A DNA stretch of 64,000 bases from Bartonella sp. HY038 (GTDB lineage Bacteria; Pseudomonadota; Alphaproteobacteria; Rhizobiales; Rhizobiaceae). The position numbers and the translations under genes were made by a program. The notes beneath the pieces are model-generated. The model made no database searches and was not told the origin of the DNA. It worked only from the letters and a program-made list of their open reading frames with translations. Location: NCBI RefSeq assembly GCF_014117425.1, contig NZ_CP059725.1:1240001-1304000 (forward strand), written 5' to 3'. The first letter of the stretch is position 1. The number at the start of each line of letters is the position of its first letter. Shown here piece by piece: positions 20,929 through 28,740 of this stretch.

Positions 20929-22062
20929 ATGAAAACTTCAAAGTTCTTTTTAGCGCTTTTAGCTGCTGGGGCAAGCTTGGGATTTACACAATATAATGCG
21001 TCTGCAGCAGATGCGGTAACTTTAGAAGCAGAGCCAGTTGAGTATGTGCGAGTTTGTGATACTTATGGTCAGGGTTATTTCTATATCCCCGGTACTGAAA
21101 CCTGCATGAGCATTGGTGGTATGGTATTTGGTACTGTCTATGGTGGCGCAGATGTATATACTCGTACTTTGAATGACCGTGATCCTAAAAAGTGGCGTTA
21201 TTCAACTCGTGCAGAACTTGATTTTTCTACAGCTACTGATACTGAGTTAGGTACTTTGCGCACCTTTATCCGTTTGCGTGGTGAGTGGGCCGATGGCGAG
21301 CAGGTTGAAGCTGGTAGTTTACGCTTTGGCTACATTGATCTTGGTGGTTTGCGTGTAGGTCTTGATGAATCTGCAATTAATACTTTCTTTGGTTATTATG
21401 GCGATTTCATCAATGATGATGTGGTGCTTGGCGGCGGATACAGAACTAATCTTATCAGCTATACCTATGCAGCTGATAATGGTTTCTCAGCTTTAATTTC
21501 TCTTGAACAGGGAAATACTGAGGATAATGACTATAATGGTCAAATTACTGATTATACACCTCATGTTGTTCTTGCAGCTAAATATGAGCAGGCTTGGGGC
21601 TCATTAACTGGTGCCGCTGCTTATGATTCTGTTAATGAAACTTGGATTGGTAAGGCCAAAGTTAGCGTCAATATTACTGATAAATTTAACATTTGGGGTA
21701 TGGCCGCTTATAAGGATTTAAAAGATACTTATTTTGGTGATATTGATGATGAAAATTCAATCATCACCGATCGTAATATTCGCGGTGTTCGCGCCGTTAA
21801 TAGCTTCTATGCTACTTGGGGCGGTAAATGGGTTGGCTGGGTAGGTGCATCCTACGGGTTTACTGAAAAGGCAACAGGAAATCTTCAGCTTGCTTATGAG
21901 GGAGCTGGTAATTTTTACGGTGCTGCTAACGTTAATTATGAACTCGTATCAGGTTTAACGCTTATTCCTGAAGTTAATTATCGCAAATGGAATGATAGCA
22001 AGTCAGAGTTGAAGGGTAAGGATGCGTTTGGCGGTGCCTTACGTTTACAGCGTGATTTTTAA
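20929..22062 (+). CDS. Outer-membrane porin, Omp2 family
   Basis: A 377-residue porin with a signal peptide ending near ASAAD (about residue 28). The N-terminal plug-like segment carries Cys43 and Cys59 in the arrangement VRVCDTYGQGY and PGTETCMSIGG, a hallmark of alphaproteobacterial Omp2a/Omp2b porins. The remainder consists of alternating beta strands and ends in aromatic Phe, needed for outer-membrane assembly. It should form trimers for small-solute uptake. A strong terminator follows directly. Confidence 0.94.
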   Translation: MKTSKFFLALLAAGASLGFTQYNASAADAVTLEAEPVEYVRVCDTYGQGYFYIPGTETCMSIGGMVFGTVYGGADVYTRTLNDRDPKKWRYSTRAELDFSTATDTELGTLRTFIRLRGEWADGEQVEAGSLRFGYIDLGGLRVGLDESAINTFFGYYGDFINDDVVLGGGYRTNLISYTYAADNGFSALISLEQGNTEDNDYNGQITDYTPHVVLAAKYEQAWGSLTGAAAYDSVNETWIGKAKVSVNITDKFNIWGMAAYKDLKDTYFGDIDDENSIITDRNIRGVRAVNSFYATWGGKWVGWVGASYGFTEKATGNLQLAYEGAGNFYGAANVNYELVSGLTLIPEVNYRKWNDSKSELKGKDAFGGALRLQRDF

Positions 22063-22085
22063 TCCGTTTATTCTTTAAATGTATT

Positions 22086-22115
22086 AAAGGCTCAGCTTTG
22101 CTGGGCCTTTTTTTT
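22086..22115 (+). terminator. Porin terminator
   Basis: AAAGGCTCAGC pairs with GCTGGGCCTTT (one G-U) around a three-base loop and is followed by a run of T. It is a textbook Rho-independent terminator, 24 bases past the porin stop. Confidence 0.92.
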
Positions 22116-22263
22116 GATCATTTAATCTGTCTACTCAAAGCTAGCTGAATGTTATATTTTAAACATTATAAAACCTTAAAAATGTTAGTTTTTGATTTTA
22201 TAAAGGCCATATTTGTTGAGTTTATATTGTATTCTATTTGAGTGCTTCAAGGTGTCGAGTTTT

Positions 22264-22845
22264 ATGAAAAAAATAATCGTATTTCTATCCATTCTTCTCA
22301 TAGGCCCGTTAATTGCGTCATTGGTAATAGTCATAATAGGTTTGCGTGATCACAAGGGAAAGGCTGATATAGGCGTGGTCCTTGGTACTGCAATTTTTGC
22401 TGATGGCACCTTGTCTTCTTATCTAAAAGGTCGCCTTGATGAGACTGTAAAGCTGTATCAACAAGAATATTTTCCGTTAATTGTTGTCAGCGGTGGTGAA
22501 AATGAGTTTGGATTGTCTGAAACAAAAATTATGAAAGACTATCTTATTGAACAAGGTATTCCAACCAATGCCATTATCGAAGACGCTGAAGGTATTAATA
22601 CTGCAGCCACAGCAAAAAATATGGTGGCGATAATGCAAAAGAGTTCAGCCCAAAGTGCATTTATTATTACCCAATTTTTTCATGTTCCTCGTACTCGTTT
22701 GGCTTTTGCCTGCAATGGTATTTCCCCCGTTTATTATGCGCCAAGTCGGCAATGGAATATGAGGGATCTCTATTCTGTTTTGCGCGAAGTGCCTGCGAAT
22801 GTCACTTATTGGTGGAATTGTTCAAAACATTCCAACAAAGGGTAA
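22264..22845 (+). CDS. YdcF/SanA-like DUF218 membrane protein
   Basis: A 193-residue protein with one N-terminal membrane segment (about residues 2-24) and a DUF218 domain: DIGVVLGTAIFADGTLSSYL, then PLIVVSGGENEFGLSET, NTAATAKNM and the segment IITQFFHVPRTRLAF. Relatives (SanA, YdcF, ElyC) act in envelope or vancomycin barrier functions, with unproved biochemistry. The start at 22264 is chosen because AAGG precedes it by 11 bases and the membrane segment begins at once; an upstream in-frame ATG exists at 22213. Confidence 0.85.
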   Translation: MKKIIVFLSILLIGPLIASLVIVIIGLRDHKGKADIGVVLGTAIFADGTLSSYLKGRLDETVKLYQQEYFPLIVVSGGENEFGLSETKIMKDYLIEQGIPTNAIIEDAEGINTAATAKNMVAIMQKSSAQSAFIITQFFHVPRTRLAFACNGISPVYYAPSRQWNMRDLYSVLREVPANVTYWWNCSKHSNKG

Positions 22846-23133: not shown

Positions 23134-24675
23134 ATGAAAACCATTTTTTCTTGTAATCATAAACAGATCGGTACCAATTATCTGGTTTTTGCCATTATTG
23201 CTGGTATTATCGGTGTTTTGCTCTCGGTTGTTATGCGATTGGAGCTCAATGAGCCAGGGATTCAGTATTTTCATGGTCTAGCTAGCTTATTATATGGTTA
23301 TGAGGGAATCTCAGCTGTTGAGAAAGGGCGTGAAATGTTTACGCTTTTTTCATCTGCTCATGCCCTTATCATGATTTTTTTCATGGTTGTACCAGCTTTA
23401 TTTGGTGGTTTTGCTAATTGGCTGCTGCCAATGATGATTGGTTGCGAAAATATGCTATTTCCGCGCTTGAACCGCTTTGCTTTCTTATTATTATTTCCTG
23501 CAATGGCTTTGTTGGTTGGTAGCTTATTGTGGGTTTCTTCTGCGCAGACTGCATGTCTATTAATGATAGCAATGATTCATCTTGCTGCGCTTTCCGCAAT
23601 ATTGACTGCTGCTAATTTTATCGCAACTATATTGGTGGCGCGCGCCCCTGGTATGGGGTTTAAATATTTACCAATTTTTGTCTGGTCAGTTTTGGTTTCA
23701 TCTTTTTTAATGATTATTTGCATGCCGACTATGACTGCTGCATTAAGTTCTTTACTTTATCATTTTGGTTTTGATAATTTTAGCATGCATGCGGTTGATG
23801 GTAAAAATCTACAGGTTATGTTGTGGTTCTATTCGCATCCTGAAATTTTTGTACTGATTTTACCTGCGTTCGGCATTATTAGTGAAGTTGTTGCTACTTT
23901 CGCAAATCGCCCACTTGTTGGACGGTCTTATGTTGTTTCGGCCATGGTCTTTATCGGTGCGGCGGGTTTCTTAATTTGGGCGCAAAATCTTTTTTCTGCA
24001 GCCAATCTTGGCGACATGAAGGGGTATTTTTTTGTAGCTTTACCAATTATAGCTATTCCTGCTTTTGTGATAATCGGTTCTTGGCTTGCAACAATTGTAA
24101 GTGGGCACATTCAATATAAAACGCCTATGCTTTGGGCTTTGGGTTTTATTTTAATGTTTGTTATTGGTAGTTTTTCAGCTATTCACTTGGCACTAAACAG
24201 CCCTGTGAGTAACGGCAATCCAGCATTCGTCAGCCATTTCCATTATATTTTGTCACTTGGTGCAGTCTTTGCAATTTTCGCAGCATGGTATTTTTGGTTT
24301 CCCAAAATTTCGGGTTATGAGTTACGCGAACTTACCGGTAAACTACATTTTTCAATTATGTTTATTGCGGTTAATATGATTTTTCTTCCGCAACATTTTC
24401 AAGGTTTTGAATATGTTAATGGTAGTGTTGCTTTGTGGATTGAAAATAATATTGGTTGGAATAAGATTATAACGTTAGGTGCAATGATAGGCGCTCTTTC
24501 ACTTGTTGTTTTTTTATATGGCATTTGTGAAGCGTTTTGGCGTAAAATAGCCGTAGCAAGCAATCCTTGGGGTGAGGGGGCAACGACACTAGAATGGTCC
24601 TTGCCTTCGCCTGCTCCAATTGTTCAATGGCAAGCTATCCCTGTTTTTGATAAAAAAAAAGCTGCAAGTTTTTAA
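23134..24675 (+). CDS. ctaD: Cytochrome c oxidase subunit I homologue lacking the CuB site
   Basis: A 513-residue, 12-helix heme-copper oxidase subunit I homologue, uninterrupted from NHKQIGTNYLVFA to the usual end NPWGEGATTLEWSLPSP. Kept: His76 (heme a), His368 and His370 (heme a3 and a), Lys329 of the K-channel, Glu237, and His235, one CuB ligand. Lost: the CuB pair His-His is Gln284-Asn285, the cross-linked Tyr is Phe239, the D-channel Asp is Asn106, the Mg-site His-Asp is Asn360-Gly361, and the Arg pair after the QHF motif is absent. By what is known of the family it should bind two hemes but no CuB and should not reduce oxygen to water. No subunit II or III gene is adjacent. A protein of unknown new role, or an early pseudogene, are the options. 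Confidence 0.9.
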   Translation: MKTIFSCNHKQIGTNYLVFAIIAGIIGVLLSVVMRLELNEPGIQYFHGLASLLYGYEGISAVEKGREMFTLFSSAHALIMIFFMVVPALFGGFANWLLPMMIGCENMLFPRLNRFAFLLLFPAMALLVGSLLWVSSAQTACLLMIAMIHLAALSAILTAANFIATILVARAPGMGFKYLPIFVWSVLVSSFLMIICMPTMTAALSSLLYHFGFDNFSMHAVDGKNLQVMLWFYSHPEIFVLILPAFGIISEVVATFANRPLVGRSYVVSAMVFIGAAGFLIWAQNLFSAANLGDMKGYFFVALPIIAIPAFVIIGSWLATIVSGHIQYKTPMLWALGFILMFVIGSFSAIHLALNSPVSNGNPAFVSHFHYILSLGAVFAIFAAWYFWFPKISGYELRELTGKLHFSIMFIAVNMIFLPQHFQGFEYVNGSVALWIENNIGWNKIITLGAMIGALSLVVFLYGICEAFWRKIAVASNPWGEGATTLEWSLPSPAPIVQWQAIPVFDKKKAASF

Positions 24676-24878: not shown

Positions 24879-25895
24879 ATGGTATCAATTTTTAATCTAC
24901 TGCTGCAAAGTTTAACTAATTTGAGCAAATGCTCGATGGGTACGTTAATGTCAATACCTAATCAAATCAATCAAACACCTGAAATGGCTTATATTTCCAT
25001 GGCGGAAAGCCGCGATTATATCACGTTGTTAAAACTTCGCGTTATGTCGTTGGTGGTTTTTACTGCCTTTGTAGGCCTTGTGGTTGCACCTGGAACAATT
25101 AATCCTATTTTGGGGTTTCTTGCTATTTTATGTATTGCTGTCGGTGGTGGTGCGTCGGGTGCGTTAAATATGTGGTACGATTCTGATATTGATGCTGTGA
25201 TGAAGCGTACTCAATCTCGACCTATTCCATCGGGTAAAATAAGCCGCAACCAAGTATTGATATTTGGTTTGGTTTTGGCTGCTTTTTCTGTTGGCGTGAT
25301 GGGTGTTTTTATTAATTGGTTTTCAGCGCTATTTTTGGCCTTTACAATTTTTTTCTATGCGGTCATTTATACGATTTGGCTAAAGCGTTCAACTCCGCAA
25401 AATATCGTTATAGGTGGAGCATCTGGTGCTTTTCCCCCAATGATTGGTTGGGCTGCGGTTACAGGTACAATTAGTCTTGATAGTATTGTTTTATTTTTAA
25501 TTATTTTTATGTGGACACCACCGCATTTTTGGGCTCTTTCCTTGTTTAGTACAACAGATTATGAAGCTGCGCATATTCCGATGATGCCAAATGTTAAGGG
25601 CGAGCGTTCGACAAAAAACCAAATTTTGGTATATGCAATTTTAATGGCATTAATCGGCGTTTTGCCTTATGTCTTAGGCTTTGCGGGAATTGTATTTGGT
25701 AGTATTTCTGCTGTTTTGGGGTTTATTTTTATTATTCGTGCCGTTCAGTTATGGAAGACGAGTACACGAGATGAAACTATCCCTGCTGCAAAACGATTAT
25801 TTTTCTTTTCACTATTTTATTTAACCGGTGTTTTTGCTGTTCTTTTGCTTGAAAATCTTGCCATTAAAGCACTTGCAATTTGGGGATATAACTAA
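24879..25895 (+). CDS. ctaB: Protoheme IX farnesyltransferase (heme O synthase)
   Basis: CtaB adds a farnesyl group to heme b, giving heme O, needed for bo3 oxidases and as precursor of heme A. The 338-residue UbiA-type membrane protein has the Asp-rich loop [19 protein letters not shown], the segment [32 protein letters not shown] and the segment [10 protein letters not shown]. The first 35 residues are poorly conserved and the true start may be 24948 (MSIPNQ) or later. It overlaps coxF by one base (TAATG). Its retention next to a CuB-less subunit I suggests heme O is still used, for example by a quinol oxidase elsewhere. Confidence 0.95.
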
Positions 25896-26044
25896 TGGTT
25901 AAGTCATCTGATAAACAAGCTTACTTAACCCTTACAAAAGAACAAAAAGCTGCAAGAAAAAGCCGTGCCTTAGGTATAATGGTGGTTGTTTTATTACTAG
26001 CATTATTAATTTACATTGCAACTTATGCAAAATTTGGTGGGTAA
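25895..26044 (+). CDS. coxF: CoxF-like small membrane protein
   Basis: A 49-residue protein starting at the ATG that overlaps the ctaB stop codon. It has a basic N-terminal half (LTKEQKAARKSRALG) and one membrane helix (about residues 27-45, IMVVVLLLALLIYIATY). This size, composition and place match the CoxF protein that follows ctaB in rhizobial aa3 oxidase operons. Its function is not established. In relatives ctaG, ctaE and surf1 follow; here the next gene is ispH. Confidence 0.75.
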   Translation: MVKSSDKQAYLTLTKEQKAARKSRALGIMVVVLLLALLIYIATYAKFGG

Positions 26045-26264
26045 ATTTAGGCTTTCTTTTTTAAGCGTTAATTAAACGCTTAGTCAAAAAATATTTTCGC
26101 TATAATTTTCTGGCTAGATTATATAAGAGTTAGCCGCTATATATGATATTGATATTTTAAAAGCGATGGCTTTGCTAGTTTCAAATATTACTTTGATTGC
26201 CGATGTGTTTTAAGGTTCTGAATAACCTATGCATTTTATTTCTTTGACAGAGGAACAGAATTTT

Positions 26265-27293
26265 ATGGCCACCAAATCCCCCCTAACTATACGCCTGTGC
26301 GGACCGCGTGGATTTTGTGCAGGCGTTGATAGAGCTATTCAGATTGTGGTTGCAGCCTTAAAAAAATATGGCGCGCCTGTGTTTGTACGTCATGAAATAG
26401 TTCATAATGGTTACGTAGTTGAAGGTTTAATTGCTCGCGGTGCGGTGTTTATTGAAGAGCTAGATGAAATTCCAGCAGATCTTCGTGATCGGCCTGTCGT
26501 TTTCTCGGCGCATGGAGTACCAAAGTCAGTACCGGCAGATGCAACGGCTAAAAATCTTTTTTACCTTGATGCTACCTGTCCCTTGGTATCAAAAGTGCAT
26601 AAGCAGGCGATTAGACACCGCAAGCACGGACGACATGTTATTTTGATTGGACATGCTGGGCATCCAGAAGTAATTGGCACCATGGGCCAATTAGATGAAG
26701 GGGCGGTAAGCCTTATTGAAACCATTGAGGATGCGCAAACTTACCAGCCACTTGATCCTGAAAATCTTGGCTTTGTTACGCAAACGACTTTATCGGTTGA
26801 AGATACAGCTGGCATTATTGAGGTGCTCTACCAACGTTTTCCACAAATGCAGGCGGCGGCAGCTGAATCTATTTGCTATGCAACAACCAATCGGCAGGAC
26901 GCTGTTAAAGCAGCTGCACCAGGTAGCGATTTGTTCTTGATTGTTGGAGCTCCCAACTCATCAAATTCACGTCGCCTTGTCGAGGTTGCGGAAAGAGCAG
27001 GGGCTAAAAAATCTATTTTGGTACAACGTGCTTCTGAAATTGATTGGTTGAATTTGGGTTCTTTAGGGGTGGTTAGTTTATCTGCGGGAGCTTCTGCACC
27101 TGAAATCATTGTTTCAGAAATTATAGAAGCTTTTCGTGAGCGCTATGAGATGAGTATTGAGCTTGCTGAAACAACGCAAGAGCTTGAAAATTTCTTAGTA
27201 AATCGTGAATTGCGTGATGTTATTCTAACCAATGATGATATGGCTTTTGTGAATGGCGTAGAAAGTGATTCCGCGCTTAATGAATTAGCCTAA
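26265..27293 (+). CDS. ispH: 4-hydroxy-3-methylbut-2-enyl diphosphate reductase
   Basis: IspH (LytB) is the last enzyme of the non-mevalonate isoprenoid pathway, making IPP and DMAPP with a [4Fe-4S] cluster. The 342 residues show the three cluster cysteines in [10 protein letters not shown] (Cys18), [12 protein letters not shown] and the segment ICYATTNRQ, plus the conserved FSAHGVP and IGHAGHPEV. The start is set at 26265 because GAGGA lies ten bases before it; an ATG at 26229 would add 12 unrelated residues. The gene is followed by thrB and rnhA as in Brucella. Confidence 0.97.
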
Positions 27294-27311: not shown

Positions 27312-28280
27312 ATGGCTGTTTATACCGATATTAGTGAAGAGCAGCTTGCAGGCTTTTTAAACGAATATGACGTTGGAACGCTTCTTTCATATAAGGGCAT
27401 TGCTGAAGGCGTTGAAAATTCTAATTTCTTGTTACGCACAAAAGCTGGTAACTTTATTCTTACTATTTATGAAAAGCGCGTAGATGAGCGTGATTTGCCG
27501 TTTTTTCTGGGGCTAACACAACATCTTGCGCAAAAAGGCATTCTCTGCCCACAACCTATCCTTCGTAAAGATGGCGAGATGGTAAGTCGATTAGCTGGAA
27601 AACCAGCCGCGCTTATTAGTTTTCTTGAGGGGATGTGGGTTAGGAAGCCTACAGCTTTTCATTGTGGTAAAGTGGGAGCCGCTCTTGCTAATTTACATGT
27701 AGCGGGCTCTGATTTTCCCATTAAACGAAAAAATAGCCTTTCAATCGATGGTTGGCATCAATTGTGGAGTGATGTGCGTTATCGCGCAAATGATATGGCT
27801 CCAGATCTTGAAAAAGAAATAGATAATGAATTAGTTTTTCTTGAAAAAAATTGGCCTAGTGATTTACCATCTGGCGTGATTCACGCTGATTTATTTAATG
27901 ATAATGTGTTTTTCCTTGATGGTGATTTATCCGGCATAATTGATTTTTATTTTGCTTGTAATGATGCCTTCGCCTATGATTTGGCCATTTGCTTAAATGC
28001 ATGGTGCTTTGAAGCGGATTTATCGTATAATTTGACCAAGGGGAGTGCCCTTCTATCTCATTATGCTACGCAGCGTCAGCTTTCTGATCGTGAGCGAGAT
28101 TTATTGCCTATTTTAGCACGCGGTGCCGCATTGCGCTTCTTTTTAACTCGCGCCTATGATTGGTTCTTTATTGATGATAGCGGACTTGTGGTTAAAAAAA
28201 ATCCAATCGAATATTTGCGTAAACTACGCTTTTTTAGACAAATAGTGCGTAGTAGCGAGCTTGGCCTACCCAACAGTTGA
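27312..28280 (+). CDS. thrB: Homoserine kinase (type II, ThrB)
   Basis: Phosphorylates homoserine for threonine synthesis. The 322-residue protein has the aminoglycoside-phosphotransferase fold typical of alphaproteobacterial ThrB: the segment [14 protein letters not shown] near residue 28, the catalytic loop [14 protein letters not shown] and the metal-binding [16 protein letters not shown] precedes the ATG. It is 18 bases after ispH and 16 before rnhA, so the three genes are probably one transcript. Confidence 0.95.
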
Positions 28281-28296
28281 TAGCTGACAATAATAG

Positions 28297-28740
28297 ATGA
28301 TGAAACAGATAGTAATTTATACTGATGGCGCGTGTTCCGGTAATCCTGGCCCTGGTGGTTGGGGTGCGCTTTTGCAATATAATGGTCATGAGCGCGAATT
28401 ATTTGGCGGTGAAAAAGATACCACTAATAATCGTATGGAAATTATGGCAGCTGTTGAAGGGTTAAATGCGCTGAAAGAACCATGTAAAGTCGATCTGTAT
28501 ACTGATTCAGTTTATGTACGTGATGGCATTTCAAAATGGATTGAAGGTTGGAAGCGTAATGGTTGGCAAACGGCAGCCAAAAAGCCGGTTAAAAATATGG
28601 ATCTTTGGCAAGCACTTGACGAGGCTCGTAAACGCCATGATGTTGTTTGGCATTGGGTTAAAGGACATGCTGGACATACAGAAAATGAGCGTGTTGATAG
28701 TTTAGCGCGTAAGGGCGTTGCCGAAATTAAAGCTGGATAG
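28297..28740 (+). CDS. rnhA: Ribonuclease HI
   Basis: Degrades the RNA strand of RNA-DNA hybrids. The 147-residue protein has the four-residue active site in order: [33 protein letters not shown] and a final Asp in the ERVDSLAR segment, with the basic handle [14 protein letters not shown]. Two ATG codons in tandem (28297 and 28300) are possible starts. Confidence 0.97.

Follow-up and report, generated by a model that had tools for sequence, protein, structure and literature searches.

A conserved COX1 family, predicted to be non-catalytic, beside ctaB in Bartonella and related genera

CuB-ligand mutants of the Rhodobacter sphaeroides aa3 and Escherichia coli bo3 oxidases, in which the equivalents of H333 and H334 are lost, retain their hemes, and CuB-ligand and K-channel mutants of heme-copper oxidases no longer reduce O2. 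A 'deranged' COX1-like ctaD in the ctaB cluster of Acetobacter was reportedly described by Matsutani in 2014. According to Degli Esposti (2023; PMC10715153), the COX1-like gene in the Acetobacter ctaB cluster is 'deranged', lacks the metal ligands and is proposed to stabilise CtaB, and in three A. pasteurianus strains ctaA, ctaB and ctaD are reported as conserved, with ctaB and ctaD under consecutive locus tags (PMC5158111). Among the papers listed by our literature searches, none concerns a CuB-less CtaD in Bartonella.

The window analyzed here is a 64,000-nucleotide stretch of contig NZ_CP059725.1 of Bartonella sp. HY038. Its gene ctaD* resembles the Acetobacter case in that a COX1-like gene adjoins ctaB in a genome where searches turned up a bo3-type quinol oxidase but none of the aa3 type. 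We report that ctaD* represents a real, conserved COX1 family whose members are predicted to be non-catalytic.

The ctaD* gene, its locus and its genome

A preliminary description, made from the letters of the window, had claimed an intact frame of 513 codons for ctaD*, which holds (Table 1). The product is a COX1 by Pfam (PF00115, 276 bits vs. a cut-off of 34.8) and lies far below the NCBIfam equivalog cut-offs for both CtaD_CoxA (385.4 vs. 670.75) and CyoB (254 vs. 1020.35). In sequence it is a COX1 protein, and its predicted structure is likewise a COX1 fold, in a model biased by eight canonical rows among 30 input rows. No sensor or output domain was found in it.

Table 1. Positions within the window of ctaD*, selected codons and downstream genes
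Feature	Position	Strand	Remarks
ctaD* (CuB-less CtaD-like, 513 aa)	23134..24675	+	uninterrupted frame, 513 codons + stop
His76 codon (low-spin heme ligand, R. sphaeroides H102)	23359..23361	+	26/27 non-redundant members keep His
His235 codon (first CuB ligand, H284), retained	23836..23838	+	26/27 members
Phe239 codon (cross-linked Tyr288 position)	23848..23850	+	F 4/27, Y 23/27
Gln284-Asn285 codons (CuB ligands H333-H334 gone)	23983..23988	+	His 3/27 and 0/27
Ile313 codon (K-channel Lys362 gone)	24070..24072	+	I 25/27, M 2/27
Asn360-Gly361 codons (Mg-site H411-D412 gone)	24211..24216	+	His 0/27, Asp 3/27
His368-Phe369-His370 codons (heme a3 ligand H419; low-spin ligand H421)	24235..24243	+	22/27 and 25/27
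ctaB, heme O synthase	24879..25895	+	TIGR01473 325 bits vs. cut-off 210; ORF as listed, internal start likely
coxF-like 49-aa single-helix ORF	25895..26044	+	overlaps ctaB stop (TAATG)
ispH (LytB family), ancestral cta locus marker	26229..27293	+	Pfam
thrB-like homoserine kinase, locus marker	27312..28280	+	Pfam APH family (window, L109 and L147); L145 copy passes thrB_alt cut-off
rnhA, locus marker	28297..28740	+	RNase_H by Pfam

We take the residue roles and Rhodobacter numbers to apply at the aligned positions of ctaD*. Alignment to relatives confirmed most of the substitutions that had been read from the window protein: the first CuB ligand, H235, is present and Gln284-Asn285 replaces the His-His pair, Phe239 stands at the cross-linked Tyr, Asn360-Gly361 replaces the Mg-site His-Asp (in columns that align loosely and are placed differently by different alignments), and the Arg pair is gone. 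The retention of His76, His235, Glu237, His368 and His370 was likewise upheld, and the predicted ligands of the low- and high-spin hemes (H76, H370 and H368) are all present. One alignment took in 28 relatives, one of which (L011) is a wrong ORF, and tolerated one miss. Two assignments fared differently. The D-channel Asp is indeed Asn106 in the window protein, but the change is not fixed in the lineage, as Bartonella sp. HY329, P0004, P0005 and P0008 have Asp. Lys329, which had been listed as retained, is not the K-channel lysine: it sits in HIQYK-TPML, where canonical relatives have R, T or S; the true K-channel position (VPTG-x-K-IFSW in relatives) is Ile313 in ctaD*, indicating that the K channel is lost too. 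Lacking CuB, the K channel and electron entry, ctaD* should not reduce oxygen, to judge from the CuB-ligand and K-channel mutants of heme-copper oxidases. The HY329 protein, at 93% amino acid identity, carries the same Q-N, F and N-G, so neither chance nor an assembly error, which we considered and rejected, lies behind the loss of CuB; the family recurs in 19 genomes.

In the window and in 18/18 further genomes, ctaB follows ctaD* on the same strand, at a distance of no more than 560 bp. The 49-aa ORF that follows, which we presume to be CoxF-like, gave no Pfam or NCBIfam match over cut-off, and a similar ORF occupies the same place in 7/7 ctaD* loci examined and in the canonical locus L109. 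At L109, in Pseudochrobactrum, the order is tldD, ialB, ctaC, ctaD, ctaB, coxF-like, ctaG, ctaE, DUF983, surf1, ispH, thrB, rnhA, whereas the window and the loci read in the Bartonella genus (g115) and in a third genus, g7 (L143-L147), run ctaD*, ctaB, coxF-like, ispH, thrB, rnhA (the family names of neighbors were tested by profile for the window, L147 and L145). The order ispH-thrB-rnhA is thus common to the window, L109, L147 and L145, and the ctaD* locus has lost ctaC, ctaG, ctaE, DUF983 and surf1, all of which L109 has. Since the adjacency of ctaD and ctaB is ancestral, it says little for a partnership between their products. Upstream of ctaD*, where L109 has tldD-ialB-ctaC, the window carries two other genes (20929-22845), one of the Porin_2 and one of the DUF218 (SanA-like) family. 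At L156 (3536-4473), ctaB aligns in two frames, which may reflect a frameshift or an assembly error.

The window's genome (3.60 Mb, 4 contigs) contains two COX1 homologues, CyoB and ctaD*. CyoB (C1:405896-407437) passes its NCBIfam cut-off (1040 vs. 1020), as do CyoA, CyoC and CyoD theirs, and a check for another complete aa3 operon, which had been proposed at the outset, returned CyoABCD as the only complete oxidase of the heme-copper superfamily found there. No CtaC or CtaE was found in this genome, PF00116 and PF00510 matching CyoA and CyoC alone (under PF00116, a canonical CtaC reaches 159 bits), and a family search did not find CtaG in it (G000), in G001 (HY329) or in G007. A SURF1 gene persists near the cyo operon. 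The genome's 201-kb contig begins with 12 kb that match, at 96-97%, plasmids of two Bartonella sp. found in bat feces, HY406 and HY761.

Both the window's genome and that of HY329 have a CtaA-family gene. The CtaA of the window's genome passes Pfam at 354 bits and falls under the NCBIfam heme A synthase cut-off (338 vs. 550), so that its heme A synthase activity is presumptive. We rejected the retention of CtaA as proof that ctaD* uses heme A: all 71 g115 genomes have a CtaA-family gene and 14 have ctaD*, and in G006, which has CtaA, no CtaD-like gene was found, hence CtaA retention is no evidence on ctaD*. With CtaA kept and no canonical aa3 subunit I among the matches listed for the g115 genomes and G006, the bo3-type quinol oxidase of these bacteria may carry heme A. 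In one g115 genome (G460:C3:839594-840554), CtaA is split into two overlapping stretches, by a sequencing error or a break.

Distribution, origin and selection

CuB-less ctaD* occurs in 19 genomes of three genera, namely in 2/2 genomes of the window's genus (g1), 14/71 of g115 and 3/4 of g7, and also among database and metagenome proteins. The protein encoded in G001 is identical to the one that NCBI lists for Bartonella sp. HY329, and two g115 members likewise encode exact copies of proteins listed there under 'uncultured Bartonella sp.'. The gene was not found in the remaining g7 genome or in 57/71 g115 genomes searched at E <= 1e-15, a search that a badly decayed copy could escape; the matches in those 57 are frames of 673-681 aa, CyoB-like judged by length. 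That it was not found in so many g115 genomes indicates that ctaD* is dispensable. The motifs HH, HPE[VI]Y, the K-channel Lys and AHFHY are kept in 120/120 canonical loci checked (117 distinct sequences) and in 0/19 of the ctaD* family.

The CuB-less proteins have one origin. In a maximum-likelihood tree (LG+C20+F+G4; 68 rows minus 11 near-duplicates), one branch of length 1.02 and support 100/100 split 31 CuB-less from 26 canonical rows, with L184 and L165 as long branches and the root assumed on the canonical side. The canonical set comprised 12 of 96 proteins (P0026-P0121) together with P0025, among 120 matches listed of 7697, and 13 of 14 chosen loci, L068 being left out as unmatched by motif. 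A family-wide search covered 394 genomes, a sample of a larger group, at E <= 1e-110, which is too strict for decayed copies like the one in G007. It returned 18 matches: six CuB-less (G000, G001, G135, G263, G305 and G346) and 12 canonical, nine of which were checked as L125-L133 and three as L148-L150. A search of GTDB contigs gave canonical CtaD alone among the best 80 of 533 matches; its motifs were canonical-like and may have missed near relatives, so that it does not bound the distribution. One shrinkage of the operon in a common ancestor would fit these findings.

Is ctaD* maintained by selection? Between the window and HY329, dN/dS is 0.05 (dN 0.039; dS 0.783), far from 1, and in 14 close g115 pairs (dS < 0.25) it is 0.074-0.156, showing that ctaD* is under purifying selection in g1 and Bartonella. 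A pseudogene, which we considered, is rejected for these two genera by the low dN/dS. The frame is open in 19/19 copies, all of at least 442 codons, which answers the frameshift check that had been suggested for relatives. For ctaB, dN/dS is 0.04 between the window and HY329 and 0.038-0.104 over seven pairs with the window's included; ctaD* exceeds ctaB in 10/10 pairs compared, L156 and L160 having been left out of the ctaB comparison. In g7, the least diverged pair gives about 0.30 for ctaD*, and the copy L184 (G007) ends early, at 446 codons, with the profile match extending a few codons beyond the stop. The preliminary description had argued for a new function rather than random decay. Selection in g1 and Bartonella sustains the second half of that argument; a new function is a proposal.

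Residues and helices kept by the family

The 42 CuB-less rows, some of which are one gene from two sources (e.g., P0003 and L004), reduce to 27 members at 90% identity. Among these 27, the low-spin heme residues are well kept (H102 in 26, H421 in 25, R52 in 25), as are the a3 ligand H419 (22), W280 (26), H284 (26), Y288 (23) and E286 (24). Mostly gone are H333 (kept in 3), H334 (0), K362 (0), R481 (1) and R482 (0), along with the Mg site (H411 in 0, D412 in 3) and W172 (0), whose loop is deleted; D132 is kept in 13/27. In three metagenome proteins (P0006, P0020 and P0021), one His of the CuB pair remains, as His-Asn, perhaps an intermediate state.

We compared these values with random sets of canonical-invariant residues. 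The 309 canonical-invariant columns have a mean retention of 0.493, and 80/309 are kept in <= 10% of members. The low-spin trio (retention 0.938) and the three heme His (0.901) were equalled by 2.5% and 4.6% of random sets, respectively, a modest enrichment (p about 0.025 and 0.046) for categories that we chose ourselves. Five residues on the CuA/exit side had a retention of 0.03, with 0.2% of random sets as low. H333 and H334 (0.056; 8.5% as low) and K362 with T359 (0.22; 21% as low) were unexceptional, and eight D-channel residues had a mean of 0.68 (9.9% as high). With the CuB and K-channel pairs unexceptional, the statistical outliers are two: the subunit II side is lost and the low-spin heme retained. 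The selective loss of copper and proton-entry residues that had been proposed from the window therefore needs restating: almost all subunit II/CuA-facing residues are gone and the low-spin ligands stand above background, but the CuB His pair and the two K-channel residues do not stand out.

Mean pairwise identity within ctaD* is highest in TM10, which bears H368 and H370 (0.73), followed by TM6 (0.65) and TM2 (0.61), and lowest in TM4, TM12 and TM8 (0.44-0.45). In canonical CtaD, by comparison, TM5, TM7 and TM8 reach 0.93-0.95, TM6 and TM10 0.93, and TM2 0.88, suggesting that constraint has been relaxed on the proton- and CuB-side helices compared with those that bear heme. The high values of TM10 and TM6 in canonical CtaD nevertheless count against reading their conservation in ctaD* as a sign of a heme role.

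Heme ligands are eroded in g7 and some relatives. L182 has Asn in place of the a3 ligand His, L183 has Tyr at one low-spin ligand, and in L184 H235 and the three heme His are all gone, which makes it the only one of the 42 CuB-less members without H102, H419, H421 and H284 together. Tyr also takes the place of the a3 ligand in three metagenome proteins, P0018, P0019 and P0021. The g7-like branch thus displays a graded loss (a3 ligand, then low-spin ligand, then all) in open frames. Together with the dN/dS of about 0.30, this erosion indicates that the protein in g7 is either kept without full heme sites or decaying. It speaks against a universal role of heme in the family, as do the 57/71 g115 genomes in which the gene was not found.

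Possible roles of ctaD* and its place among known systems

Our reading, held tentatively and at somewhat less than an even chance, is that ctaD* would be a non-catalytic, heme-holding partner of CtaB that stabilises CtaB or passes heme on for the bo3 oxidase; a helper of heme insertion was among the suggestions of the preliminary description and remains the best reading. The aa3 operon would have shrunk once in a common ancestor, and where a relative has the full operon, the ctaD* locus has ctaD*-ctaB-coxF-like. The remaining subunit I, bereft of two of three CuB His and the K-channel Lys but still with the oxidase's heme-binding residues, would hold heme and act with CtaB, either by stabilising it or by passing heme on, and the product of CtaB and ctaD* would feed CyoABCD. 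Bound heme, CtaB as the partner and CyoABCD as the beneficiary are what we infer. That ctaD* is specifically a heme chaperone made from a pseudo-oxidase, the ancestor having dropped aa3 and kept subunit I, stripped of copper and proton entry, as a dedicated membrane store that receives heme from CtaB and delivers it to bo3, with Acetobacter arriving there independently, seems unlikely to us.

A stand-alone cytochrome or sensor is a serious rival, on the unlikely side of possible. It would be a free-standing membrane protein whose low-spin bis-His heme, with or without a five-coordinate heme, serves in electron transfer or in the sensing of O2, NO or CO, with no part for CtaB. In its favor, few functional residues are kept as well as the low-spin ligands and R52, conservation peaks in TM10, TM6 and TM2, and the low-spin pair persists in 25/27 members with the a3 ligand changed in 5/27. 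However, the CuA/subunit II residues through which electrons enter are gone, no sensor or output domain was found in ctaD*, the loci read share no partner gene except ctaB and the coxF-like ORF, and ligands are lost in g7.

Could the polypeptide matter and the heme not? It may be a structural relic that stabilises CtaB, or a CtaA-CtaB assembly, as proposed for Acetobacter, where all metal ligands are said to be lost (PMC10715153); in g7, too, heme ligands erode with the frame open and the ctaB neighbor intact. The persistence of low-spin ligands in 25-26/27 members, against an average of 49% for canonical-invariant residues, makes this quite unlikely for the family.

Slow decay without function, ctaD* being intact by chance or because it sets the transcription or translation of ctaB, is improbable. 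It draws on the higher dN/dS of ctaD* than of ctaB, on the genomes in which the gene was not found (57/71 in the Bartonella genus, 1/4 in g7) and on the shortened copy and raised dN/dS of g7, but persistence through three genera, 19/19 open frames and a dN/dS of 0.05-0.16 in close pairs outside g7 speak against it and largely refute it for g1 and Bartonella. It is very improbable that ctaD* regulates the Cyo complex, or acts as a decoy in it, by replacing or joining CyoB as an alternative subunit I, for although CyoABCD is the only complete oxidase of the superfamily found in the genome, the subunit-II-facing residues of ctaD* are gone and its score is CtaD-like and far from the CyoB cut-off.

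A heme-holding partner of CtaB, or whichever of these proteins ctaD* proves to be, offers a natural experiment: the catalytic core of a respiratory oxidase, stripped of catalytic residues and yet under selection, in three genera, some of whose bacteria bear the name Bartonella. With a series that grades from heme ligands all kept, through one lost, to none left, and with the case of Acetobacter for comparison, the route of heme O or A from the synthases to the oxidase becomes testable, and with it whether an oxidase-like protein can serve as a heme carrier. There is also a warning for annotation: NCBI names the HY329 protein 'cbb3-type cytochrome c oxidase subunit I', and by that name these bacteria would have an oxidase that they seem to be without.

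Compared with canonical CtaD (type A1, Rhizobiales), ctaD* shares the fold, a similar length, the heme ligands, the locus (ctaB, coxF-like, ispH-thrB-rnhA) and about 47% identity, but it is without CuB H333/H334, K362, the W172 loop, the Arg pair and the Mg site, in a genome in which the partner proteins CtaC, CtaE and CtaG were not found. CyoB of the same genome belongs to the same superfamily, at 34% identity, and passes the NCBIfam cut-off that ctaD* fails. The CuB mutants of R. sphaeroides and E. coli are laboratory point changes in a complete enzyme, whereas ctaD* is a natural stand-alone protein. The published parallel is Acetobacter, which likewise keeps a COX1 homologue beside ctaB, with ctaA and a bo3-type ubiquinol oxidase in the genome. 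All metal-binding residues of the Acetobacter protein are gone by the published description, whereas most ctaD* members have both heme sites and one CuB His; the gene order also differs, and purifying selection was measured for ctaD*. The two genes presumably arose independently. By this analogy, the ctaD* family looks like an earlier or a different state of an Acetobacter-like fate, with the heme sites apparently under selection in most members. We conclude that ctaD* belongs to a type of gene reported before from acetic acid bacteria and is its heme-retaining variant.
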